NCBI RefSeq assembly: GCF_004216475.1
Contig: NZ_CP022303.1
Location: forward strand, 930,001-994,000
From: Thalassococcus sp. S3
GTDB taxonomy: Bacteria; Pseudomonadota; Alphaproteobacteria; Rhodobacterales; Rhodobacteraceae
Reading direction: 5' to 3'
Length of the DNA: 64,000 nucleotides
Shown: one piece after another, positions 37,700-49,041 of the stretch
Numbering within the stretch: position 1 is the first letter of the stretch
Layout: each line of letters starts with the position of its first letter
The notes under the pieces: model-generated
Databases searched by the model: none
The model's input: only the letters and a program-made list of their open reading frames with translations
What the model was told of the DNA's origin: nothing
Translations under genes and position numbers: made by a program

Positions 37700-38679
37700 G
37701 CCTTGTCTCCATTCGCAACCTGAGCCGTGTTTTCGACGTGTCCAAACCCTGGCTGAACCGTCTGCTGGAGCGTTTGCCAAAACGCATGCTGACGGCGGTG
37801 TCGGATGTCAGTTTCGATATTCGGGAAAACACCGTTTATGCGCTGGTGGGAGAGTCCGGGTCGGGCAAGTCCACGATCGGGAAGATCCTTGTCGGGCTGT
37901 TGTCACCCTCGGAAGGTCGCGTACAGATCCGGGGCGTTGACCTGGCAACGGAAACGGATGCTCAGGCAGTTGCCGCTGTCCGGTCGGATATCCAGATGAT
38001 TTTCCAGGATCCCTATGCCTCGCTTAACCCGCGCTGGCGTGTTGGAGATATCATCGTGGAACCGGTGGCAGCGCGGGGTGGTGACACCAAGGGCCTTGCG
38101 GCGCGTTTGTTGAAACAGGTGGGGCTTGCGCCGGAGGACGCGGTGAAGTTCCCGCATGAGTTTTCTGGCGGGCAGCGCCAGCGGATCGGGATCGCCCGGG
38201 CGCTTGCGTCCGAGCCGAAATTGATCGTTTGCGACGAGCCCACATCGGCCCTGGACGTGTCGGTGCAGGCGCAGGTGCTTAACCTGATGTCCGATCTCAA
38301 GGACGATCTTGGTCTGACCTATCTCTTTATCAGCCACGACCTGACCGTTGTCCGCCATATGGCGGATCGGATCGGTGTTCTTTATCTGGGCCGACTCGTC
38401 GAGGAAGCCGAGCCAGACGCGCTTTTTGAGGGACCCAAGCATCCCTATACGCAGATGCTGTTGGCGGCGGCACCACGGATGGACAGCTTTGGCCGCGATG
38501 TTCCCCCGCCACAGGGTGAGATCCCGGATCCGATCAATCCGCCGTCAGGTTGTGCATTTCACCCCAGATGTCCAATCGCAGTGGCACGTTGCAAAACCGA
38601 AAGACCGGACCTCCGGACCCTAGGATCCGGCCGTGTCGCTTGTCACCTTGCGGACGAGAGTGTCGAGCTAAGCGCCTGA
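37696..38679 (+). CDS. Peptide-type ABC transporter ATP-binding protein (DppF-like)
   Basis: A 327-residue ATPase, partner of the preceding one. Walker A 'GESGSGKST' near 53-61, Q-loop 'IFQDPYASLNPRW', signature 'FSGGQRQRIGIARA', Walker B 'LIVCDEPTSALD', H-loop 'ISHDLTV' and the terminal Cys-rich motif 'CAFHPRCPIAVARC'. It is the last gene of the transport locus. Its 3' end overlaps the convergent sulfatase-like gene by 12 bases. Confidence 0.93.
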   Translation: MSLVSIRNLSRVFDVSKPWLNRLLERLPKRMLTAVSDVSFDIRENTVYALVGESGSGKSTIGKILVGLLSPSEGRVQIRGVDLATETDAQAVAAVRSDIQMIFQDPYASLNPRWRVGDIIVEPVAARGGDTKGLAARLLKQVGLAPEDAVKFPHEFSGGQRQRIGIARALASEPKLIVCDEPTSALDVSVQAQVLNLMSDLKDDLGLTYLFISHDLTVVRHMADRIGVLYLGRLVEEAEPDALFEGPKHPYTQMLLAAAPRMDSFGRDVPPPQGEIPDPINPPSGCAFHPRCPIAVARCKTERPDLRTLGSGRVACHLADESVELSA

Positions 38680-40353
38680 GGCGTCCTTGGGTTTGCGATC
38701 AGTGAAAGCGTGGGCCTTGCGGCCGCGATACTTTACCGTAAGCTCCAGTGGCGCGTCGTTCTCATCGTAAACGCCGATGATCACACCGCGCCCGCGACTG
38801 TTCGTTCTCATGTCGATCATCTGCGCATCGGACCGTGTGGTCCGTTGCGCGGTGCGCCGCGTCCATCGAAAAAGATGCTGGTACATCATGTCGATGATTT
38901 CACCATGGTCGGGGCTGTCCCCCAGATCGACGAGCTCATCCGGATCGTTCTGCAGATCGAACAGGATCGGGCGATAACCGCCTTCGCAGTGGATCAGCTT
39001 CCAGTCCTTGGTCGCGACCATGAACATCACAGCATCGCGCACGGTTTCCGTCAGCGTCTCCGCGAGGGGCGATCCTGAATAGTCGTACTCGCAAATCACA
39101 AACTCGCGGTCTGTTTCGGTCTGCTTTCCGTGCAAGATCGGGAGGAGAGAGCGGCCCTCCACAATGTGGGATGGCACGTCACCTCCCGCGACCTCGATGA
39201 ATGTTGGCGCCAGATCGATGCTTTCGACCAGAGCGTCGCAGACCGTTCCACGGGTTGCATCCGCGTCGGAAGACGGGTCATAGACAATCAGGGGGACCCT
39301 GGTTGAGGCGTCGTGGAAGAATGTCTTTTCCCCCATCCAGTGATCGCCCAGAAAGTCACCGTGGTCCGAGGTCAGAACGATCATGGTGTCCTCCATGCGC
39401 CCTGTCTCCTCCAGCCAGTTGAAAAGCACCCCCATTTGATCGTCGGCCTGCTTGATCAGGCCCATATAGGCCGGGATCACGGCATCCCTGATGTGGTCCT
39501 TTGAGAAGGCCTGCCCGACAAAGGTCTGCATGAAAGCCTTTAGAACCGGATGGGCGTTGTCGCGCTCTTCCTCACTGCGGACGGGTGGCAGGATGTGCTG
39601 GCGGCCATACATGGCATTGTAAGGCGCAGGCACGATATAGGGCCAATGCGGTTTGATATACGACAGATGACAGCACCAGGGTCCTTCGGCTTGTGCGATG
39701 AACTCCATACCGCGACGTGTCAGATAGGGCGTCTCACTGTGCTGCTCTTCTATGTTGGCGGGCTTTGACGCGTTCTTGAGAAACCAGCCGGACAAGACAT
39801 TCCCGTCATTATCCAGGGCTGAGTTCGCGAAGTCGTGCCAGGGATTGTCGCTGTCATACCCCTGTTCGCGCAGATAGGCGCTGTAGGCCTTGGCGCCGTC
39901 GGGATCGTAGGATCCATCCGGGCCTTCAGGCAGCATGCCGTCGTCCCGCTCGAAGACATCGAAACCGCATTCCGCGACGCGCGCGCCGATCAGGCTGTCG
40001 GGCTCGATGCCCAGGCGCGCCATGCCGTCCGCATCCGCCCGCATGTGGGTTTTGCCGACAAGGTGGCAGCCCATTCCCAGCGCGCGCAAGTGATCACCCA
40101 TGGTCATCTCACCCACTTTCAGCGGGATTCCGTTCCAGGACGCGCCATGGCTGTGCACGTATCGGCCTGTATAGGTCGACATGCGTGATGACCCGCAGAT
40201 CGGCGACTGTATATAGGCACGTGAAAAGCGCACGCCCCGCGCCGCAAGCGCATCTATATGCGGTGTCTCAAGGTGAGGATGTCCGGCGCAACTCAGATAG
40301 TCCCATCTCAGTTGGTCGAACATGATGAAAAGGATGTTCTTTGCGCGCGCCAT
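38668..40353 (-). CDS. Sulfatase-like hydrolase (alkaline phosphatase superfamily)
   Basis: A 561-residue member of the sulfatase / phosphonate monoester hydrolase group. Metal ligands are visible in 'FIMFDQLRWDYL' near residue 12 and 'LTSDHGDFLGDH' near 325. The nucleophile motif 'CGSSRMSTYTGR' near residue 52 has Cys for formylglycine, but with Ser where CxPxR has Pro. 'GKTHMR' and 'GEKTFFHDAS' supply Lys and His. No signal peptide is present, so it acts in the cytoplasm, on sulfate or phosphonate esters brought in by a transporter, possibly the adjacent ABC system. I chose the ATG at 40353; an in-frame TTG lies six bases earlier. Confidence 0.83.
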   Translation of the reverse strand: MARAKNILFIMFDQLRWDYLSCAGHPHLETPHIDALAARGVRFSRAYIQSPICGSSRMSTYTGRYVHSHGASWNGIPLKVGEMTMGDHLRALGMGCHLVGKTHMRADADGMARLGIEPDSLIGARVAECGFDVFERDDGMLPEGPDGSYDPDGAKAYSAYLREQGYDSDNPWHDFANSALDNDGNVLSGWFLKNASKPANIEEQHSETPYLTRRGMEFIAQAEGPWCCHLSYIKPHWPYIVPAPYNAMYGRQHILPPVRSEEERDNAHPVLKAFMQTFVGQAFSKDHIRDAVIPAYMGLIKQADDQMGVLFNWLEETGRMEDTMIVLTSDHGDFLGDHWMGEKTFFHDASTRVPLIVYDPSSDADATRGTVCDALVESIDLAPTFIEVAGGDVPSHIVEGRSLLPILHGKQTETDREFVICEYDYSGSPLAETLTETVRDAVMFMVATKDWKLIHCEGGYRPILFDLQNDPDELVDLGDSPDHGEIIDMMYQHLFRWTRRTAQRTTRSDAQMIDMRTNSRGRGVIIGVYDENDAPLELTVKYRGRKAHAFTDRKPKDASGA

Positions 40354-40382
40354 GTTCAAAAGGTCTGTGTTTGCTGAAAGTA

Positions 40383-40467: not shown

Positions 40468-41304
40468 TTAGGTCAACTTATACGTGTGCGGAGATCCGCC
40501 TATCGCGTTTGTCAACGTATCTGCCGCCTGCCGGACCTTCGCGCCAAAATCATCGACGGAGACTTGGTCCATGCGGCTTGATGGACCCGATATCGAAAGA
40601 CCCGCACTGGCCTCACCATGCAGATCAAAGACCGGAGCGGCGACGCATTTCATGCCCAGGTTGCGCTCCTCCGCATCGATGGAAAATCCCCGGTCCCGAA
40701 TATGCGCCAGATCGGCGATCAGGTCGGACCGGTCGGTCAGCGTATGTTCGGTAAAGGCCGAAAGGGCATGTGCGTCCAGATACCGCTCCAGCCGGTCTGG
40801 CATGAACTGCGCCAACAAAGCCTTACCAATGCCCGAGGCATGCATGGGAGAGATCGTTCCGGGCGGGAAAAAGGCGCGGATGCTGGAATGTGTTTCCACC
40901 TGGCTGAGAAACAGGACCTTACCGTCTTTCTCGATGCCGAGATTGGCGGTCTCGCCGGTCTGTTCCATCAGGGCGCGCAGGATCGGGCGGGCGCGCTCGA
41001 CCAGACTGGTGCGCCTGAGAAAATGCGATCCAATGAGAAAAGCCTGGGGACCGATGTGCCAGATCTGCCCTGCTGCATCGTACTCGATGACGCCCCGTTG
41101 CTCCATCGTGATCAGCATGCGGTAAACAGTGGCGGGGGCCTGATCCAATTCGCCGGCAAGTTCCGACAACGTGGCGCCGCCCATCTCCGCCAGGCGTTGA
41201 AGCGCCTCCAGGGCACGATCAAGGGACTTGATCGTGTTTTGTTCGGTTTTGTCGCTCCAATCGCGTGGTCGTCCACGCGCGCGTCGAGAAGATGAATCGT
41301 TCAT
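40468..41304 (-). CDS. bhcR: BhcR, IclR-family regulator of the beta-hydroxyaspartate cycle
   Basis: A 278-residue IclR-type regulator. An Arg-rich N terminus ('RRARGRPRDW') precedes the winged helix-turn-helix (about residues 22-85; 'IKSLDRALEALQRLAEMGGATLSELA' and 'ATVYRMLITMEQRG'), and the effector domain carries 'GTISPMHASGIGKALLAQ' and 'DAEERNLGMKCVAAPVFD'. It is divergent from bhcABCD, as in Paracoccus denitrificans, where BhcR binds the intergenic region and glyoxylate affects binding. The ATG at 41304 has AGGA 5 bases upstream; an in-frame ATG at 41328 lies within the operator region and has no site. Confidence 0.9.
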   Translation of the reverse strand: MNDSSSRRARGRPRDWSDKTEQNTIKSLDRALEALQRLAEMGGATLSELAGELDQAPATVYRMLITMEQRGVIEYDAAGQIWHIGPQAFLIGSHFLRRTSLVERARPILRALMEQTGETANLGIEKDGKVLFLSQVETHSSIRAFFPPGTISPMHASGIGKALLAQFMPDRLERYLDAHALSAFTEHTLTDRSDLIADLAHIRDRGFSIDAEERNLGMKCVAAPVFDLHGEASAGLSISGPSSRMDQVSVDDFGAKVRQAADTLTNAIGGSPHTYKLT

Positions 41305-41312
41305 ATCATTCC

Positions 41313-41327
41313 TGAAAAAATTTTTCA
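41313..41327. promoter_or_regulatory. BhcR-type palindrome, bhcR-proximal
   Basis: TGAAAAAATTTTTCA begins 8 bases upstream of the bhcR start and includes part of its leader. It is the exact reverse complement of the element at 41386-41400. A partial copy, TGAAAAAAT, begins at 41333. Confidence 0.7.
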
Positions 41328-41385
41328 CATTATGAAAAAATATAAATACATAAAAGTAAACACTTTTATCGCCTTTCTCAAAAAA

Positions 41386-41400
41386 TGAAAAATTTTTTCA
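41386..41400. promoter_or_regulatory. BhcR-type palindrome, bhcA-proximal
   Basis: TGAAAAATTTTTTCA lies 61 bases upstream of the bhcA start in a strikingly AT-rich stretch (41305-41410) of an otherwise GC-rich window. It is the exact reverse complement of the element at 41313-41327, so the two sites present the same face to each of the divergent genes. Confidence 0.7.
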
Positions 41401-41461
41401 AAAAAATTGCTCTCTTATGTCGTTGCTGGCACCTTAAGCAAAAGCGGTAGGAGGAGCGTTC

Positions 41462-42652
41462 ATGATCACCCAAAACCCGGCCTTCATTCCCGGCCCGACA
41501 AACATACCCGAAGTTGTTCGGCGGGCATGCGACATGCCGACCTTGGATCATCGCTCATCGGCTTTTCGGGATATCCTGCACCCGGCACTGAATGCCGTGC
41601 GACACGTGATGAAGGCGCCGCAGGCGGAGATTTTCGTGTTCCCCTCAACCGGCACCGGAGGGTGGGAGACCGCCTTGACCAACACGCTCAGCCCTGGTGA
41701 TCGGGTCTTGGCGGCGCGCAACGGCATGTTTTCGCACCGCTGGATCGATATGTGCGAGCGCCATGGCCTGGATGTGCAGGTTCTCGATGTCCCCTGGGGC
41801 GAAGGGTTGCCCGCGCAACGATACGAAGAGATCCTGACCGCAGACACCCAGCATCGTATCAGGGCCATCCTGGCCACCCATAACGAGACCGCCACCGGCG
41901 TTCTGTCGGATATCGCAGCGCTGCGCGCGGCGTTGGATACGGCGGATCATCCGGCACTGCTGTTGGTGGACGGTGTAAGCTCCATCGGATCGGTTGATTT
42001 CGAGTTTGAGAAATGGGGTGTCGATATCGCCGTTGCGGGCTCGCAAAAGGGCTTCATGATGCCGGCTGGCCTGGCGATTGTCGCCTTCAGCCCGAAAGCA
42101 ATGGCCGCTGTGTCGCAGGCCACGCTACCGCGCACCTTCTTTGATGTCCGGGATATGGCAGACAGCTATGCGACCGGAGGGTATCCGTACACACCCGCTG
42201 TGGGTTTGTTGAACGGCTTGAATGTTGCCGCACACATGCTGCTTGATGAAGGCCTGGACAATGTCTTTGCACGCCATCGGCGTATTGCGGATGGGGTCCG
42301 GGCGGCGACACAGGCCTGGGGTCTGCAGCTTTGCGCCCGCAGGCCGGAGCTTTACTCCGACACGGTCAGTGCCATTCGCACGCCCGACGGGTTTGATGCG
42401 ACCCGGATCGTCAACCACGCCGCCGAGACATATGGTGTCGCCTTCGGCGTCGGCTTGGGAGAGGTCGCTGGCAAGGTCTTTCGCATCGGGCATCTGGGGT
42501 CGCTGACCGATGTCATGATGCTTAGCGGCCTTGCGACCGCCGAAATGTGCATGGTGGATCTGGGGATGGATATCAAACTGGGACAAGGCGTTGCGGCGGC
42601 CCAGCGTGTCTATGCAACGGGTGCCAGTGAACCTCACAGGGAGGCTGCGTGA
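41462..42652 (+). CDS. bhcA: BhcA, aspartate-glyoxylate aminotransferase
   Basis: A 396-residue class V PLP-dependent aminotransferase. It begins 'FIPGPTNIPEVVRRACDMP', with 'FPSTGTGGWETALTNTLSPGD' binding the PLP phosphate region and the Schiff-base lysine K196 in 'AGSQKGFMMP'. In the beta-hydroxyaspartate cycle it transfers the amino group of aspartate to glyoxylate, giving glycine and oxaloacetate. It is the first gene of bhcABCD and has a GGAGG ribosome site 6-7 bases before the ATG. Gene order, together with the divergent IclR gene, makes this assignment firm. Confidence 0.93.
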   Translation: MITQNPAFIPGPTNIPEVVRRACDMPTLDHRSSAFRDILHPALNAVRHVMKAPQAEIFVFPSTGTGGWETALTNTLSPGDRVLAARNGMFSHRWIDMCERHGLDVQVLDVPWGEGLPAQRYEEILTADTQHRIRAILATHNETATGVLSDIAALRAALDTADHPALLLVDGVSSIGSVDFEFEKWGVDIAVAGSQKGFMMPAGLAIVAFSPKAMAAVSQATLPRTFFDVRDMADSYATGGYPYTPAVGLLNGLNVAAHMLLDEGLDNVFARHRRIADGVRAATQAWGLQLCARRPELYSDTVSAIRTPDGFDATRIVNHAAETYGVAFGVGLGEVAGKVFRIGHLGSLTDVMMLSGLATAEMCMVDLGMDIKLGQGVAAAQRVYATGASEPHREAA

Positions 42653-43620
42653 TGAAGGATATGTCGGACCTGACCCTTCCAACCTATCAGGATATGCTGG
42701 ACGCGCACGAGCGGATTGCACCGCATATTCATCGCACGCCGGTTTTGACGTCTCGCTATTTTGATGAGTTGACCGGAGCCGAGCTGTTCTTCAAATGCGA
42801 GAACTTCCAGAAGGCGGGCGCGTTCAAGGTGCGCGGGGCATCGAACGCGGTCTTCGGGTTGCGGCAAGACCAGCTAGAGTGGGGCGTGGCGACGCACAGC
42901 TCGGGCAATCATGCGCTCTCACTCAGCTATGCCGCAGGGCGACGTGGTGTCCCCTGCACTGTCGTCATGCCACGGACCGCGCCAGAGGCGAAAAAGGCGG
43001 CCGTGCGTGGGTACGGTGGACGGATCGTGGAATGTGAACCATCGACATCCAGCCGTGAGGCCGTCTTTGAAGAAGTGGTCGCCGAAACAGGTGCCGAATT
43101 TGTTCATCCTTACAATGACCCCCGGGTTATCGCGGGACAGGGGACCTGTTCCCGCGAACTGATGGAACAGACCGATGGCCTTGACATGGTGATCGCCCCG
43201 ATCGGGGGCGGAGGTATGATTTCGGGCACCTGCCTGACCCTGTCTCATCTGGCGCCAGAGGTAGAGGTCATTGCAGCGGAACCCGAACAGGCCGATGATG
43301 CCTATCGCAGCTTCAAGGCCGGACATATCATCGCGGATGATGCGCCGCAGACCATTGCGGACGGGCTGAAGGTCCCGCTCAAAGAGCTGACCTGGCATTT
43401 CGTTTCGAACCACGTCGCGGACATCCTGACGGCAAGCGAACAAGAGATCATCGAGGCAATGAAACTGACCTGGCAGCGGATGAAAATCGTGATGGAGCCG
43501 AGTTGTGCGGTGCCGCTGGCCACCATTCTGAAAAACAAGGAGCGCTTCGCGGGCAAACGTGTAGGCGTGATTATCACGGGCGGGAATGTCGATCTTGATC
43601 GCCTGCCTTGGCTGCTTTGA
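42652..43620 (+). CDS. bhcB: BhcB, beta-hydroxyaspartate dehydratase
   Basis: A 322-residue fold-type II PLP enzyme of the serine/threonine dehydratase family. The PLP lysine is K59 in 'KAGAFKVRGAS', 'SSGNHALSLSYAA' is the phosphate-facing Asn motif, and 'PIGGGGMISG' is the glycine loop. In the cycle it dehydrates (2R,3S)-beta-hydroxyaspartate to iminosuccinate. An in-frame GTG at 42649 precedes the ATG, but CAGGGAGG lies 7 bases before the ATG at 42652, so I use the ATG. The start overlaps the bhcA stop. Confidence 0.93.
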   Translation: MKDMSDLTLPTYQDMLDAHERIAPHIHRTPVLTSRYFDELTGAELFFKCENFQKAGAFKVRGASNAVFGLRQDQLEWGVATHSSGNHALSLSYAAGRRGVPCTVVMPRTAPEAKKAAVRGYGGRIVECEPSTSSREAVFEEVVAETGAEFVHPYNDPRVIAGQGTCSRELMEQTDGLDMVIAPIGGGGMISGTCLTLSHLAPEVEVIAAEPEQADDAYRSFKAGHIIADDAPQTIADGLKVPLKELTWHFVSNHVADILTASEQEIIEAMKLTWQRMKIVMEPSCAVPLATILKNKERFAGKRVGVIITGGNVDLDRLPWLL

Positions 43621-43634
43621 GAGAGGAGAGGACC

Positions 43635-44798
43635 ATGAACGCACCTGCGACCTTCGAGAACCTAGAGGTTGGTTTTGATGTCCCAGCCCTGCCCGGTATG
43701 GCAGAGGCGGATATTCAGACCCCATGCCTTGTCCTCGACCTCGACGCGCTTGAGCGGAACGTCGAGAAGATGGGACAGCTCGCGCGGCAAATGGGCGTGA
43801 GGCATCGTGTGCACGGCAAGATGCACAAATCCGTCGACGTGGCGTTGCTGCAGGAAAAACTGGGCGGATCCTGTGGTGTCTGCTGTCAAAAAGTCAGTGA
43901 GGCCGAGGTCTTCGCACGCGGGGGCATCAAGGATGTGCTGGTGTCCAACCAGGTGCGCGATCCGGCCAAGATCGACCGGCTGGCGCGCCTGCCCAAGCTG
44001 GGCGCCCGGGCGATCTGTTGCGTGGACGATCTGGCGAATGTCGCCGATCTCAGCGCGGCTGCCGCACGGCACGGGACCCAAATCGAATGTCTGGTGGAGA
44101 TTGACTGCGGAGCAGGGCGCTGCGGTGTGACGCGCACCTCTGATGTTGTCGAGATCGCAAAGGCCATCGACGCGGCAGAAGGGCTGCGCTTTGCAGGTCT
44201 GCAGGCCTATCAGGGCGCCATGCAGCATCTTGATGAATACGAAGACCGAAAGGCGAAAATCGATGTGGCGGTTGCCATGGTACGCGATGCGGTCGAGGCG
44301 TTGAAAGCCGAAGGTCTGGAATGTGACATCGTCGGGGGAGGTGGCACAGGCTCTTACTATTTCGAGGGTAACTCTGGCGTATACAACGAACTGCAATGCG
44401 GCTCGTACGCGTTCATGGATGCGGACTACGGTCGTATTCTGGATCAGGACGGCAATCGCATCGATGAAGGAGAATGGGAAAACGCACTCTTCATCCTGAC
44501 CTCCGTGATGAGCCATGCAAAGGCGGACAAGGCTATCGTCGATGCCGGGCTCAAGGCACAATCGGTGGACAGCGGTCTGCCCGTCATCTTTGGACGAACG
44601 GATGTTGAATACGTGAAATGCTCCGACGAACATGGCGTTGTCGCCGATCCGGACGGTCGACTTAAGGTAAACGACAAGCTGCGCCTTGTTCCGGGCCATT
44701 GCGACCCGACCTGCAATGTTCACGATTGGTATGTCGGCGTGCGTGACGGCAAGGTCGAAGTGGTTTGGCCCGTATCCGCCCGAGGTAAAGCCTACTGA
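43635..44798 (+). CDS. bhcC: BhcC, beta-hydroxyaspartate aldolase
   Basis: A 387-residue alanine-racemase-fold (type III) PLP enzyme related to D-threonine aldolase. PLP lysine K62 stands in 'RVHGKMHKS' (family pattern RPHxKTHK), and the metal site near the C terminus is H355-x-D357 in 'GHCDPTCN'. It condenses glycine and glyoxylate to (2R,3S)-beta-hydroxyaspartate, the carbon-joining step of the cycle. The ATG at 43635 follows AGGAGAGGA, 14 bases after bhcB. The Val and Met changes in the PLP motif are shared features expected of BhcC but were not compared here with other copies. Confidence 0.93.
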   Translation: MNAPATFENLEVGFDVPALPGMAEADIQTPCLVLDLDALERNVEKMGQLARQMGVRHRVHGKMHKSVDVALLQEKLGGSCGVCCQKVSEAEVFARGGIKDVLVSNQVRDPAKIDRLARLPKLGARAICCVDDLANVADLSAAAARHGTQIECLVEIDCGAGRCGVTRTSDVVEIAKAIDAAEGLRFAGLQAYQGAMQHLDEYEDRKAKIDVAVAMVRDAVEALKAEGLECDIVGGGGTGSYYFEGNSGVYNELQCGSYAFMDADYGRILDQDGNRIDEGEWENALFILTSVMSHAKADKAIVDAGLKAQSVDSGLPVIFGRTDVEYVKCSDEHGVVADPDGRLKVNDKLRLVPGHCDPTCNVHDWYVGVRDGKVEVVWPVSARGKAY

Positions 44799-44826
44799 TC
44801 CTTCCGAAAAGGACCGAGACAAGACA

Positions 44827-45792
44827 ATGTGGATCGTACCAGAGGCGACAGTCGCGCGCCTCATCACACCCGAGATGGCTTTTGAGGCTGTCGAAGCGAC
44901 CTTCGCGGCGATGGCACGCGAGGATGCGTATAATTTTCCCGTCATTCGTGAAGCGATTGGCCATGCCGATGCACTCTATGGCTTTAAATCCGGGTTCGAC
45001 CGCGCGGGCCTGCATCTTGGGCTGAAATCTGGCGGCTATTGGCCGGATAATGAACAAAAGGGCCTTACCAATCATCAATCCACGGTGTTCCTGTTCGATG
45101 CAGATACCGGTCAATGCAAGGCCGCGATGGGGGGCAATGCTTTGACCGCCCTGCGGACCGCCGCCGCCTCGGCCGTGTCTATCAAACATCTGGCGCGCGC
45201 GGATGCACGGGTCCTCGGCATCATTGGCGCAGGCCATCAATCGGCATTCCAGATGCGGGCGGCTGTCCAGCAACGCAGTTTCGACAAGGTGGTGGGGTGG
45301 AACCTACATCCTGAAACGCTGTCGCGCCTTGCCGACACCGCAGAAGAGCTTGGCCTGCCCTTTGAAGCTGTCAGTCTGGACACGCTCGGGCAAGAGGCCG
45401 ATGTGATCATATCGATCACGTCGTCCTTCGCGCCCATTCTTAACGCGGATCAGGTGCGCCCCGGCACACATCTGGCCTGCATGGGCACCGATACACGCGG
45501 CAAACAGGAGGTCGATCCGGCACTTCTGGTCCGTGCCACGGTCTTCACCGACGAAATTGCGCAATCGACCTCGATCGGAGAGGCCCAGCATGCGGTGGCC
45601 GAGGGCATCCTGACCAAAGACGCCATCACCGAAATCGGTGCGGTCATCAACGGGGCACATCCGGGGCGGCGAAGCGATGACGAGATCACCCTGTTTGATG
45701 GCACCGGTGTCGCCCTGCAGGATCTGTCTGCGGCCGCTTCGGTGCTGGATCTGGCCATCGCAGAGGGCGTCGCGACAGAGGCGGCCTTGTAG
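44827..45792 (+). CDS. bhcD: BhcD, iminosuccinate reductase
   Basis: A 321-residue member of the ornithine cyclodeaminase / mu-crystallin family. The nucleotide fold has 'LGIIGAGHQSAFQMRA' near residue 131, and 'GLKSGGYWPDN' and 'GGNALTALRTAAASAV' are family signatures that hold the substrate and the catalytic region. It reduces iminosuccinate to L-aspartate with NAD(P)H, closing the cycle by regenerating the amino donor of BhcA. It lies 28 bases after bhcC; its ribosome site (AAAGGA) is unusually far, about 13 bases, from the ATG. Confidence 0.93.
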   Translation: MWIVPEATVARLITPEMAFEAVEATFAAMAREDAYNFPVIREAIGHADALYGFKSGFDRAGLHLGLKSGGYWPDNEQKGLTNHQSTVFLFDADTGQCKAAMGGNALTALRTAAASAVSIKHLARADARVLGIIGAGHQSAFQMRAAVQQRSFDKVVGWNLHPETLSRLADTAEELGLPFEAVSLDTLGQEADVIISITSSFAPILNADQVRPGTHLACMGTDTRGKQEVDPALLVRATVFTDEIAQSTSIGEAQHAVAEGILTKDAITEIGAVINGAHPGRRSDDEITLFDGTGVALQDLSAAASVLDLAIAEGVATEAAL

Positions 45793-45865
45793 CGATACAA
45801 TCTCTTTCTGGTGGTTCTCCGGCGCTTGTCCTAGCACTTGGGCATTCGGCTGGAGGCTCTTCCGC

Positions 45866-46876
45866 ATGACAAGATCTGTGCGTGTCGCAATCAACGGGCT
45901 CGGCCGGATTGGCCGAACCCTTCTGAGACAGGTCATGACAGGCGTGGGTGCGGACCGTATCGAGGTGGTCCATGTCAACGATGTCGCGCCGCTTGAAACC
46001 TGCGCTTACCTTTTCCAGTTCGACAGCGTCTTTGGACCCTATCCCGGAGAGGTTGCAGCGTCGAGCGACGCGCTGACGATTGACGGGCAGCGGGTGCCTT
46101 TCACATCCTTGCCGGATATCTCGAACCTGGACCTTTCTGGCGTCGACATTTTGCTGGAATGCACCGGAAGGGCGCAGACACGCGAGTTTGCAGAGCGTGG
46201 ATTGCGCGCGGGCGCAGGCGCTGTGCTGATTTCGGGACCCTCGCAGGTGGCCGACATCACGCTGGTCATGGGCGCGAATGAGGCGCTTTTGAAAGAGGAG
46301 CGGATCGTCTCGAACGCATCCTGCACAACCAACGCTCTGGCGCCCCTGATGCGGTCTCTGCACGCGCTGCTCGGGGTGGAGCGTGCCCACATGACGACCA
46401 TTCATTGCTATACGGGAAGTCAGCCGATGGTTGACGCCCCGCGTACGGATCTCGCGCGAAGCCGCGCGGGTGCCCTTTCCATGGTGCCGACGACCACCAG
46501 CGCGACCAAGCTGATTGATCAGATCCTTCCCGATCTGGCCGGGCGCATCTCAGGCGCGGCTGTCCGCGTCCCAACTGCAAGCGTGTCCGCGGTGGATTTG
46601 ACAATTCAGGTGATGCGCGATGTGCCATCCGATGTAACAGGGGCGCTGGCTCGCATGGCAGAAGCGTCCCCGGTGATCGGCGTCACAAGCCATCCCAATG
46701 TTTCGACGGATATGCGGGGACGTTCTGAATCTGTCGTGCTTACCCTGCCCGAAACCCTTGTGCTGGGATCGCGGCAGGTGCGGATTTTCGGGTGGTATGA
46801 CAACGAATGGGGTTTTTCCGCCCGCATGCTGGATATGGCGCGGCTTATGAACGATCGTTTGTTTCAGACCGTCTGA
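45866..46876 (+). CDS. Divergent glyceraldehyde-3-phosphate dehydrogenase paralogue
   Basis: A 336-residue GAPDH-family protein. The nucleotide motif is 'VAINGLGRIGRTLLRQ', the catalytic Cys is C153 in 'SNASCTTN', and His is in 'TTIHCYTGSQ'. The substrate-phosphate region reads 'VPTTTSATKLIDQILP' where typical enzymes have 'PT/S-TGAAKAVG', so the Gly-Ala pair is replaced. This may change substrate preference, for example to another phosphorylated aldehyde. It follows bhcD by 73 bases and precedes the probable glucosylglycerate genes by 136. TGGAGG lies 9 bases before the ATG. Confidence 0.8.
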   Translation: MTRSVRVAINGLGRIGRTLLRQVMTGVGADRIEVVHVNDVAPLETCAYLFQFDSVFGPYPGEVAASSDALTIDGQRVPFTSLPDISNLDLSGVDILLECTGRAQTREFAERGLRAGAGAVLISGPSQVADITLVMGANEALLKEERIVSNASCTTNALAPLMRSLHALLGVERAHMTTIHCYTGSQPMVDAPRTDLARSRAGALSMVPTTTSATKLIDQILPDLAGRISGAAVRVPTASVSAVDLTIQVMRDVPSDVTGALARMAEASPVIGVTSHPNVSTDMRGRSESVVLTLPETLVLGSRQVRIFGWYDNEWGFSARMLDMARLMNDRLFQTV

Positions 46877-47012
46877 ACCCGGACATGTCGTCGCTGAAAA
46901 GATGCCCTTTGCAGGGAACGTCTCTCAGGGTGGCGCGTTCTTGTGCAAATGATCTCCGAAACCGCAGAGACGGGGGCCATAACCTTGGGTGTTTCGGGAA
47001 AAAGGGTCAGTC

Positions 47013-47828
47013 TTGACGGACGGACGAGGGATGGAACAGGTGAATTTGGTCGTTTTCACCGATCTGGATGGAACGCTTCTGGATCATGAGACGTACAGCT
47101 ATGCGCCAGCGCAGCCGGCTCTTGAGCGGTTGGCCAGTTGCCGCATTCCCTTGATCCTCGCAAGCTCCAAAACCGCCGGAGAGATGGCCCCCATTCGTCA
47201 GGCTATCGGGTTCTCGCACGCTCCGATGATTTGTGAAAACGGCGGGGGTATTGTGCCCGGTGGGGTAGAAGGCCGTGTTGACCGCTCCGGCTATTGGCGA
47301 TTGCGGGACGCATTGGACCGGATGCCCCCCGATCTCCGATCCCGCTTCGAAGGCTTTGGGGATATGAGTGTCGCGCGCGTGCGCGAGGTCACCGGTCTGC
47401 CAGAGGCGGACGCCGTGCTGGCCAAGGAGCGCGCGTTCACGGAGCCGGGATTGTGGAGCGGACCCGGAGAGGACAGCTTTGTCGAAGCTCTTGAGGCATT
47501 CGCGATCACAGCCCGACGCGGCGGGCGCTTTCTGACCCTTGGCGCAGGCACGACGAAGGCGGATCGCCTGAGCGAGATCACCTCTCAATACGGCGCATCC
47601 TTCACGGTGGCGCTGGGCGATGCACCGAATGACGCTGAAATGCTGTTGGCGGCCGATCGTGGTATTCTTATTCCAAACCCGCACGCGCCGGACATGTCGG
47701 ATCTGATCGAGCAGTCCGAAGGACGTATTGCTTTGGCGGAGGAGCCGGGACCGGCAGGCTGGGCCCGTGCGCTGGGCCTGCTGCTGGATGAGCTGGGATA
47801 TCAAGACAAAGGAGAGCGGCATGGCTGA
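47013..47828 (+). CDS. HAD-IIB phosphatase, probable glucosyl/mannosyl-3-phosphoglycerate phosphatase
   Basis: A 271-residue HAD-superfamily IIB phosphatase. Motif I 'FTDLDGTLLD' carries the nucleophile Asp, motif II is 'LASSKTAGE', and motif IV 'LGDAPNDAEML' matches the MpgP-type enzymes. It would remove phosphate from glucosyl-3-phosphoglycerate to give the osmolyte glucosylglycerate. The next gene overlaps it by 8 bases and encodes the matching synthase. Start: TTG at 47013 has AAAGGG 6 bases upstream; the in-frame ATG at 47031 has only an abutting GAGGG. The sugar specificity follows from the neighbour, not from this sequence. Confidence 0.77.
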   Translation: MTDGRGMEQVNLVVFTDLDGTLLDHETYSYAPAQPALERLASCRIPLILASSKTAGEMAPIRQAIGFSHAPMICENGGGIVPGGVEGRVDRSGYWRLRDALDRMPPDLRSRFEGFGDMSVARVREVTGLPEADAVLAKERAFTEPGLWSGPGEDSFVEALEAFAITARRGGRFLTLGAGTTKADRLSEITSQYGASFTVALGDAPNDAEMLLAADRGILIPNPHAPDMSDLIEQSEGRIALAEEPGPAGWARALGLLLDELGYQDKGERHG

Positions 47829-49041
47829 CTTTCACCAGAACGGCAATATTGCCACGATGCACAATCTGCGCGCAGCGCCGATGGAGGCTATGACCCATGC
47901 GCTGACGACATTCGCGCAGAGCCGCAAGATTACTTTGATCCTGCCGTCGCTTTATTCGGAACTCGAAGCGCCGGCCTTGGCCCAGATCGTCAAGGAACTG
48001 GCGGAAGTGCCTTATCTCCACCGCGTCATAGTGGGGCTCGACCGCGCCGATGAGGAGCAATACCGCCATGCCGTGTCCTATTTCAGCGCCTTACCGCAGC
48101 ATCATGTCGTGATCTGGAACGACAGCCCACGGCAAAAGGCCCTGGGCGAGCGATTGAAAGGGATGGGTCTTTACCCGGCGGAGCCGGGCAAGGGCAAGAA
48201 TGTCTGGTCGTGCCTGGGCTATCTGATGGCCTGCCAGGACAGCGATGTGGTGGCCATCCACGATTGCGATATCACCACCTATCACCGAGATATGCTCACT
48301 CGGCTGGTCTATCCGGTGGCAAACCCGAACTTTCCCTATCAGCTGGCCAAGGGCTATTATCCGCGCATCGGGGACGGGAAGATGAACGGTCGCGTCACGC
48401 GCCTGCTGGTCAGCCCGCTTTTGATCGCGCTGAAAAAGGTCATCGGCGACCGTGACTACATCGACTACCTGCGCAGCTTCCGCTACCCGCTGTCGGGTGA
48501 GTTCGCGATGCGCACGTCGGTCTTGCCGGATCTGCGGATCCCGTCAGATTGGGGGCTGGAGATCGGTGTTCTGTCGGAAGCCTGGCGCAATCTGGCGCCA
48601 AAGTCGGTCTGTCAGGTGGAGATTGCCGACAACTACGATCACAAGCATCAGGATCTCAGCCCGGACGATGCAAAAGCAGGTCTGAACCGCATGTCGACGG
48701 ACATCTGCAAGGCGATCTTTCGAAAGCTTGCCGCAGACGGGACGATCTTCACCACCCACGTGTTTCGCACGCTGAAGGCGACTTACTACCGTGTCGCGCT
48801 GGATCTGTTGGAAAGCTACTATAACGACGCGGCGATGAACGGTCTGACGATAGACCGCCACCGCGAAGAGCAGTCGATCGAACTCTTCGCCGAAAATATC
48901 ATGCGGGCGGGGCAGGTTTTCCTCGAAAACCCGTCTGAGACGCCGTTCATTTCAACCTGGAGCCGCGTTCATGCGGCGGATCCCGACCTGATGCGGGATA
49001 TGTTGCGCGCGGTGGCTGCGGATTACGACGATCTGGGATAG
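47821..49041 (+). CDS. GT81-type glycosyltransferase, probable glucosyl-3-phosphoglycerate synthase
   Basis: A 406-residue GT-A glycosyltransferase. The N-terminal nucleotide-binding strand is 'ITLILPSLYSELEAPAL' near residue 37, and the metal-binding DxD is in 'VVAIHDCDITTYHRDML' near 143. 'GEFAMRTSVLPDLRIPSDWGLEIGVLSE' near 222 matches the glucosyl-3-phosphoglycerate / mannosyl-3-phosphoglycerate synthase acceptor region. It joins glucose from NDP-glucose to 3-phosphoglycerate. It overlaps the phosphatase gene by 8 bases and faces the phosphorylase gene across a twin-hairpin terminator. Confidence 0.8.
   Translation: MADFHQNGNIATMHNLRAAPMEAMTHALTTFAQSRKITLILPSLYSELEAPALAQIVKELAEVPYLHRVIVGLDRADEEQYRHAVSYFSALPQHHVVIWNDSPRQKALGERLKGMGLYPAEPGKGKNVWSCLGYLMACQDSDVVAIHDCDITTYHRDMLTRLVYPVANPNFPYQLAKGYYPRIGDGKMNGRVTRLLVSPLLIALKKVIGDRDYIDYLRSFRYPLSGEFAMRTSVLPDLRIPSDWGLEIGVLSEAWRNLAPKSVCQVEIADNYDHKHQDLSPDDAKAGLNRMSTDICKAIFRKLAADGTIFTTHVFRTLKATYYRVALDLLESYYNDAAMNGLTIDRHREEQSIELFAENIMRAGQVFLENPSETPFISTWSRVHAADPDLMRDMLRAVAADYDDLG

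Follow-up and report, generated by a model that had tools for sequence, protein, structure and literature searches.

Algal glycolate carries a large flow of carbon, and one bacterial route for its assimilation is provided by the bhc gene cluster (PMC11323563). The closest described system is the regulator BhcR of Paracoccus denitrificans. According to the main text of PMC11323563 (mBio 2024), BhcR binds the 238-bp Pbhc fragment of this species, and the binding is weakened by glyoxylate and strengthened by pyruvate or oxalate. Nevertheless, glyoxylate induction of the bhc promoter requires bhcR, and BhcR acts as an activator in vivo. The authors point to a palindrome upstream of the bhcA −35 as a potential BhcR site, and they hypothesize a separate site for each of the two genes, bhcR and bhcA. 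Their paper leaves the site unmapped, as well as the paradox of an activator that binds less well in the presence of its inducer. Here, we analyzed the gap between bhcR and bhcA of Thalassococcus sp. S3 in a window of 64,000 nucleotides (contig NZ_CP022303.1, positions 930,001 to 994,000 of the forward strand; coordinates below count from the first letter of this window). With a probability of about 0.72, two palindromes seen in this gap mark the cores of a two-block BhcR operator, on which a tetramer is proposed to work.

PMC11323563 was the one paper on BhcR regulation found in our literature search, which covered few subscription papers and did not extend to RegPrecise. In its main text, the word 'footprint' is absent and 'DNase' occurs as a reagent only. 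An earlier sequence-only reading of the window had proposed binding sites for BhcR, whose exact site is not known to have been fixed; the reported palindrome before the bhcA −35 had partly anticipated this proposal. For the IclR family as a whole, PMC8222616 gives sites for 1340 factors. The BhcR group may be among them; the term 'hydroxyaspartate' is absent from the main text of that paper.

Two conserved blocks between bhcR and bhcA

The sequence-only reading had proposed two 15-bp BhcR sites, one in the bhcR leader and one before bhcA. Both 15-mers were recovered between the two genes as exact reverse complements with centers 73 bp apart, and their placement holds given a bhcR start at ATG 41304. 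Lack of conservation in other bhc loci had been named as grounds for abandoning the proposal. The sites survived this comparison in 83 other loci, and a binding-site role of the dyads is therefore well supported. However, the predicted operator is larger than two 15-bp sites, extending to a third box, which the earlier reading had passed over, a YAA triplet and an A-tract that runs to the bhcA −35. The elements of the gap are as follows.

41313..41327 (no strand): bhcR-side dyad, boxes 1 and 2 of the R-block, TGAAA-N5-TTTCA, TGAAAAAATTTTTCA; conserved in the 84-locus alignment
41332..41345 (no strand): third box, aTGAAAAA-N2-3-YAA, completing the R-block; aTGAAAAA at 41332-41339, YAA at 41343-41345
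41350..41356 (no strand): possible fourth half-site, YTGAnAA, at the R-block end; TGA exact in 54 of 83 loci, degenerate in the window (ATAAAAG)
41386..41400 (no strand): bhcA-side dyad, the A-block, TGAAA-N5-TTTCA, TGAAAAATTTTTTCA; conserved in the 84-locus alignment
41398..41406 (+): TCA and A-tract joining the A-block right half-site to the bhcA −35; 1.42-2.00 bits per column
41407..41412 (+): predicted bhcA −35, TTK...; first T in 82 of 83 loci, 17-bp spacer to the conserved −10
41430..41435 (+): predicted bhcA −10, TAnnnT, CACCTT in the window; TA in 78 of 83 loci, last T 0.78
41449..41454 (+): bhcA ribosome-binding site AGGAGG, from sequence and column conservation

The compared loci were the best 80 of 121 bhcA relatives from GTDB genomes and the best 30 of the matches in 161 of 295 genomes of the same family. 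Of these 110 loci, 94 had an adjacent divergent bhcR and 16 did not; dropping 10 near-duplicates left 84 loci including the window, and counts refer to the 83 others. Going by their record titles, the loci belonged mostly to Rhodobacterales, and Rhizobium, Ensifer, Methylobacterium, Hyphomicrobium and Roseibium were also represented.

The alignment of the 84 loci contained two conserved islands, R and A, in the gap. The spacer was mostly unconserved, with a mild A/T bias at 41364-41369, and the other strongly conserved columns were the predicted bhcA −35, −10 and ribosome-binding site. At least 8 of the 10 half-site bases were found at the bhcR-side dyad in 61 of 83 loci, at the bhcA-side dyad in 67, at both in 48 and at either in 80, against 0.3% of 14,190 other positions in the same sequences. 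All ten bases were present in 11 (R), 46 (A) and 7 (both) loci. With one change allowed, the half-sites were retained in 75 (R left), 49 (R right), 82 (third box), 64 (A left) and 73 (A right) loci. These counts indicate that the dyads are real, yet conservation is higher in the third box and in the A-block's right half with its A-tract.

The best-conserved parts of the gap, ranking above the dyads, are the third box and the run of TCA and A-tract into the bhcA −35 (41398-41409). On the bhcR side, the third box with its YAA was the best-conserved stretch: the columns at 41333-41339 carried 1.67-2.00 bits of information each, and those at 41344-41345 carried 1.74; AAAA at 41401-41404 was present in 76 of 83 loci. 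The inner five bases of the dyads were A/T-biased and mostly poorly conserved. On the bhcR side, alternating half-sites follow one another about one helical turn apart (TGAAA at 41313, TTTCA at 41323, TGAAA at 41333), the middle box being the weakest. The YAA triplet was considered as a bhcR −35 (TTR on the minus strand); it looks like a part of the operator, since it mostly survives ahead of bhcA in loci from which bhcR is missing.

The distance between the dyads was nearly constant, at 71-76 bp (mean 72.3, standard deviation 1.26), as read from the 84-locus alignment. This corresponds to about seven helical turns, so both blocks probably lie on one face of the DNA. The distance from the A-block to the bhcA start was looser (standard deviation 2.98), and that from the R-block to the bhcR start had a standard deviation of 13.8 (78 of 84 loci with an in-frame ATG, the furthest upstream being taken). 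Independently of the alignment, the stringent pattern TGAAAAA-N2-3-YAA-N4-YTGA was searched exactly in the 295 genomes and gave 147 matches, against 20 for the reversed control pattern. Of the 147, 46 had the orientation of bhcA and preceded one of 103 bhcA starts (at least 63% identity, the window's own start excluded) by 124-136 bp. The genome of the window had no match, because its fourth half-site is degenerate.

Taken alone, the window is weak evidence: the two 15-mers were its sole matches at up to three mismatches, but 14 of 100 dinucleotide shuffles also gave two or more. Across the whole genome (5,001,896 bases, 4 contigs), exact TGAAA-N5-TTTCA occurred at 8 places, whereas exact TGAAAAAWTTTTTCA occurred only at the two sites in the bhc gap. 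Among the six further TGAAA-N5-TTTCA sites (L136-L141), the open reading frames listed around L136, L137, L139 and L141 had no evident link to glyoxylate; by eye, these surroundings resembled mnmA, his genes, a TRAP transporter and ylxR/nusA. None of the 83 other loci shared the exact mirror identity of the dyads. It arises because both palindromes are of odd length with A or T at the center, and it was rejected as a meaningful feature, being present among the 84 loci in this genome alone.

The BhcR operators predicted here belong to an already known kind of IclR-family operator. At both sites, TGAAA-N5-TTTCA agrees with the outer TGRAA...TTYCA of the group 2 operator (TGRAACA-N1-2-TGTTYCA). 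The inner CA...TG bases of that operator are lacking in the window, where the inner bases are A/T-biased and poorly conserved; the motif is therefore group-2-like rather than a full match. The R-block has the three alternating half-sites, about one turn apart, of the three-box IclR-family operators. In the account of PMC8222616, the three-repeat operators of PcaU and PobR likewise combine a palindrome with an additional direct half-site, and PcaU needs the third box in order to bind. In contrast to PcaU and PobR, the half-site here is TGAAA and a second block lies about seven turns away. The two blocks also resemble the IclR-family tandem sites described in PMC8222616, where two or more sites share one face, an arrangement ascribed to binding by tetramers. 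The centers of such tandem sites are usually 18-22 bp apart, with about three or four turns also overrepresented, versus about 73 bp here. The boxes of the glyoxylate-responsive relatives IclR and AllR of Escherichia coli are A/T-rich palindromes as well (IclR TGGAAATNATTTCCA, 15 bp; PMC8222616), with a second G in the IclR half-site where the window has A. Both of these regulators repress, whereas BhcR activates bhc in vivo (PMC11323563).

P. denitrificans resembles the window in the BhcR family model, in the divergent bhcR-bhcA layout and in the positions of both blocks. We used the HAMBI_2443 sequence, while PMC11323563 worked with DSM 413; the HAMBI_2443 product shares 100% identity with the bhcC protein of PDB 6qkb, and the BhcR of this record scored 414.8 bits, above the family cut-off. 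Its gap (L142) carries TGAAAATCACTCTTT, TGGAAAA, CAA, CTGA and GCGAAATATTTTTCA at the expected places. Block profiles built from the 83 loci, with the window excluded, were scored against 300 shuffles per sequence, and in L142 gave 21.0 bits for R (0 of 300) and 16.9 bits for A (1 of 300). PMC11323563 names one potential palindrome near the bhcA −35 of P. denitrificans, versus the two blocks found here. The boxes of P. denitrificans are degenerate relative to those of the window; therefore, the promoter for which binding has been published is a degenerate case, and the window offers a cleaner one.

Genomes with bhcR away from bhcA

In the 16 of 110 loci without an adjacent bhcR, a BhcR homologue was found elsewhere in the genome in every case; its identity to the BhcR of the window was 58-64% in 13 of the genomes and about 49% in the other three. 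Nine of the 12 Marivita-type relocated regulators (L111-L119) were tested, and all nine exceeded the BhcR cut-off of 350 at 400-409 bits. The R-block still preceded bhcA in 14 of these 16 loci, at a distance of 144-147 bp from the start (23-40 bits; 0 of 300 shuffles in every case). The A-block was likewise present in 14 (24-34 bits, 0 of 300 each), and 13 of 16 had both. Since the R-block is kept before bhcA without an adjacent bhcR, it probably also serves bhcA activation.

The gene upstream of bhcA was allE, reading toward bhcA, in 11 of 12 Marivita-type loci and in L006 (family check on L026). In the Marivita lineage, the blocks were kept while much of the spacer had diverged. The simplest reading of these sequences is that bhcR dropped out between allE and bhcA and the operator stayed behind; L006 and L067 are possible further cases of such loss. 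Whole or partial allE was also found in 37 of 94 loci with an adjacent bhcR.

More broadly, allE, which encodes (S)-ureidoglycine aminohydrolase of the allantoin pathway, adjoined bhcA or lay beyond bhcR in 49 of 110 loci (e.g., L026:2452-3288, L014, L074). The allantoin pathway yields glyoxylate, and this is possibly the reason for the neighborhood of allE and bhc.

At the promoters of the relocated bhcR copies, the 12 Marivita-type genomes had an R-like block (5.8-19 bits, 0 of 300), and the A-block was not found there (58-198 of 300 shuffles). The genome of L006 showed the same pattern at L123, with an R-like block of 6.2 bits (0 of 300) and no A-block found (57 of 300). As a control, seven other IclR-type regulators (L127-L133, 29-34% identity) gave 79, 4, 5, 17, 11, 2 and 2 of 300 for the R-block. 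Because these regulators also score, part of the R-block signal is a family motif.

In the Rhizobiales-type genomes of L044, L072 and L067, a glyoxylate carboligase gene reads divergently from the BhcR homologue (L124-L126, respectively; TIGR01504 at 928, 930 and 929 bits, cut-off 711). One of the three homologues, that of L126, was tested and scored 409.3 bits against the cut-off of 350. An A-type block oriented to glyoxylate carboligase was found in L124, L125 and L126 (19.7, 19.7 and 27.0 bits; 0, 2 and 0 of 300), and by eye a TGAAA/TTTCA-like dyad lay nearer bhcR in these gaps. Two glyoxylate routes may share control through this arrangement.

Proposed mode of action and alternatives

In the proposed mechanism, the R-block would present three alternating half-sites, TGAAA-N5-TTTCA-N5-TGAAAAA, and beyond them YAA and a fourth half-site that is weak. 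The A-block would present the TGAAA-N5-TTTCA dyad, its right half continuing through the A-tract into the bhcA −35. A BhcR tetramer would contact both blocks; contact at the A-block, by the −35, would activate transcription on glyoxylate, with the R-block as the upstream anchor. At bhcR, the R-block alone would give autoregulation. We infer BhcR as the binding protein, the A-block as the activation contact and the bridging of the blocks, the last from the block spacing and from the known tetramers of the IclR family described in PMC8222616. A more far-reaching version, in which BhcR activates bhcABCD only as a block-bridging tetramer, glyoxylate rearranges the complex instead of releasing it and the regulator also steers glyoxylate carboligase, is put forward tentatively, as less likely than not. 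If true, rearrangement by glyoxylate would make activation in vivo compatible with the weaker binding seen in vitro. Given the A-type block at glyoxylate carboligase promoters, one regulator would then steer two routes of glyoxylate assimilation.

Several observations weigh against the two-block operator. Only 7 of the 83 other loci have both dyads perfect, and at least four of five bases are kept in only 49 for the right half of the R dyad and in 64 for the A-block's left half. The dyads may therefore be less important than the A-tract and the third box. Among the 16 loci without an adjacent bhcR, L006 retained R only, L072 A only and L044 neither, and the Marivita-type genomes probably reflect a single relocation within one lineage rather than twelve. 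The 5.8-19 bits at relocated bhcR copies are low scores. The R-block profile is not fully specific to BhcR, with four of the seven control regulators giving 2-5 of 300, and it was not clear in the gaps of L124-L126 (18, 7 and 41 of 300). Finally, the other 101 of the 147 stringent pattern matches lay elsewhere; some of them repeat one sequence across several genomes and are possibly coding.

The one-site-per-gene proposal of PMC11323563 comes from the group that tested BhcR. It would have the bhcR-side block only repress bhcR in the absence of glyoxylate, and the bhcA-side block alone activate bhcABCD. It accords with the A-block abutting the bhcA −35 and with relocated bhcR copies having an R-like block only. 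However, the R-block persists before bhcA in the 14 of 16 loci described above, where no bhcR adjoins, and the gene upstream in 11 of the 12 Marivita-type loci is allE in the same direction. Independent sites would also have no need of a spacing held to a standard deviation of 1.26 bp. We therefore regard this proposal as unlikely. Of the earlier two-site reading, the sites themselves are kept, while their mirror identity is incidental and the allocation of one site to each gene is probably wrong.

The blocks might instead bind another protein, or represent an A-tract or UP-element and bending sequence, with BhcR binding elsewhere in the gap. The best-conserved columns do include the A-tract by the −35, and the literature search showed no BhcR footprint. 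On the other hand, the TGAAA/TTTCA half-sites fit the outer group 2 consensus of PMC8222616, an R-like block accompanies relocated bhcR, and another target gene, next to BhcR homologues, has an A-type block. What other strong conservation the gap has coincides with the predicted −35, −10 and ribosome-binding site of bhcA, apart from the mild A/T bias in the spacer. We consider this explanation quite improbable. Chance palindromes in an AT-rich gap, to which the 14 window shuffles would point, were rejected as having next to no likelihood, since position and sequence are conserved in 83 other loci and 46 stringent matches fall at one narrow distance from bhcA.

The switch has so far been known from gel-shift and reporter experiments, to which the conserved marks add a concrete predicted map. 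The two-block operator points to bases for mutation, and the genomes with bhcR elsewhere show which hypothesis to doubt. It would also supply a defined promoter for the glyoxylate biosensors proposed in PMC11323563.

Gene content and neighborhood of the bhc cluster

The beta-hydroxyaspartate cycle cluster is represented by bhcA, bhcB, bhcC and bhcD, from which bhcR reads divergently, as the sequence-only reading had described; all five proteins exceeded their NCBIfam equivalog cut-offs.

40468..41304 (−): bhcR, IclR-type regulator, 278 aa; NF045644, 402.9 bits, cut-off 350
41462..42652 (+): bhcA, L-aspartate--glyoxylate aminotransferase; NF045640, 722.3 bits, cut-off 650
42649..43620 (+): bhcB, beta-hydroxyaspartate dehydratase; NF045641, 609.1 bits, cut-off 550
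43635..44798 (+): bhcC, 3-hydroxy-D-aspartate aldolase; NF045642, 760.2 bits, cut-off 690; full-length match to PDB 6qkb
44827..45792 (+): bhcD, iminosuccinate reductase; NF045643, 578.9 bits, cut-off 500

The bhcR start at ATG 41304 (protein MNDSSSRRARG...) is likelier than the GTG at 41328 of the listed open reading frame, because AGGA sits five bases before the ATG. Eight bases separate the bhcR-side dyad from this ATG, and the dyad touches the AGGA ribosome-binding bases; a start at GTG 41328 would place the dyad inside the gene. Positions G160, I161, D212, S239 and S241 (IclR numbering) of BhcR are Gly, Ile, Asp, Ser and Ser, as judged by eye in an alignment to E. coli IclR (1td5). These are the same five glyoxylate-oxygen-binding residues as in P. 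denitrificans BhcR (Table 1, PMC11323563). The hydrophobic-patch positions are Ser, Ala, Ser and Met here versus Thr, Ala, Ser and Met there. The earlier statement that all key residues are intact thus stands for the BhcR ligand positions, and the enzymes were judged through the family cut-offs alone.

A GAPDH-like gene lies 3' of bhcD (45863-46876, +; 323 bits, below the 367 required for GAPDH-I). Relatives of this gene, complete or in part, were hit in 11 of 110 bhcA loci, many of which stop short of that place, and a similar gene is divergent from the relocated bhcR in a Marivita-type genome (L115:375-1412, minus). The next two genes resemble the mannosyl-3-phosphoglycerate phosphatase family (46989-47828, +; 169 bits, cut-off 164.75) and, distantly, glucosyl-3-phosphoglycerate synthase (47821-49041, +; 339 bits, cut-off 700); together, they perhaps belong to a compatible-solute or glycerate-sugar pathway. 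Beyond bhcR, the gene at 38668-40359 (−) encodes a sulfatase/phosphodiesterase-type hydrolase, whose best match was PehA at 307 bits, far under the cut-off of 900.

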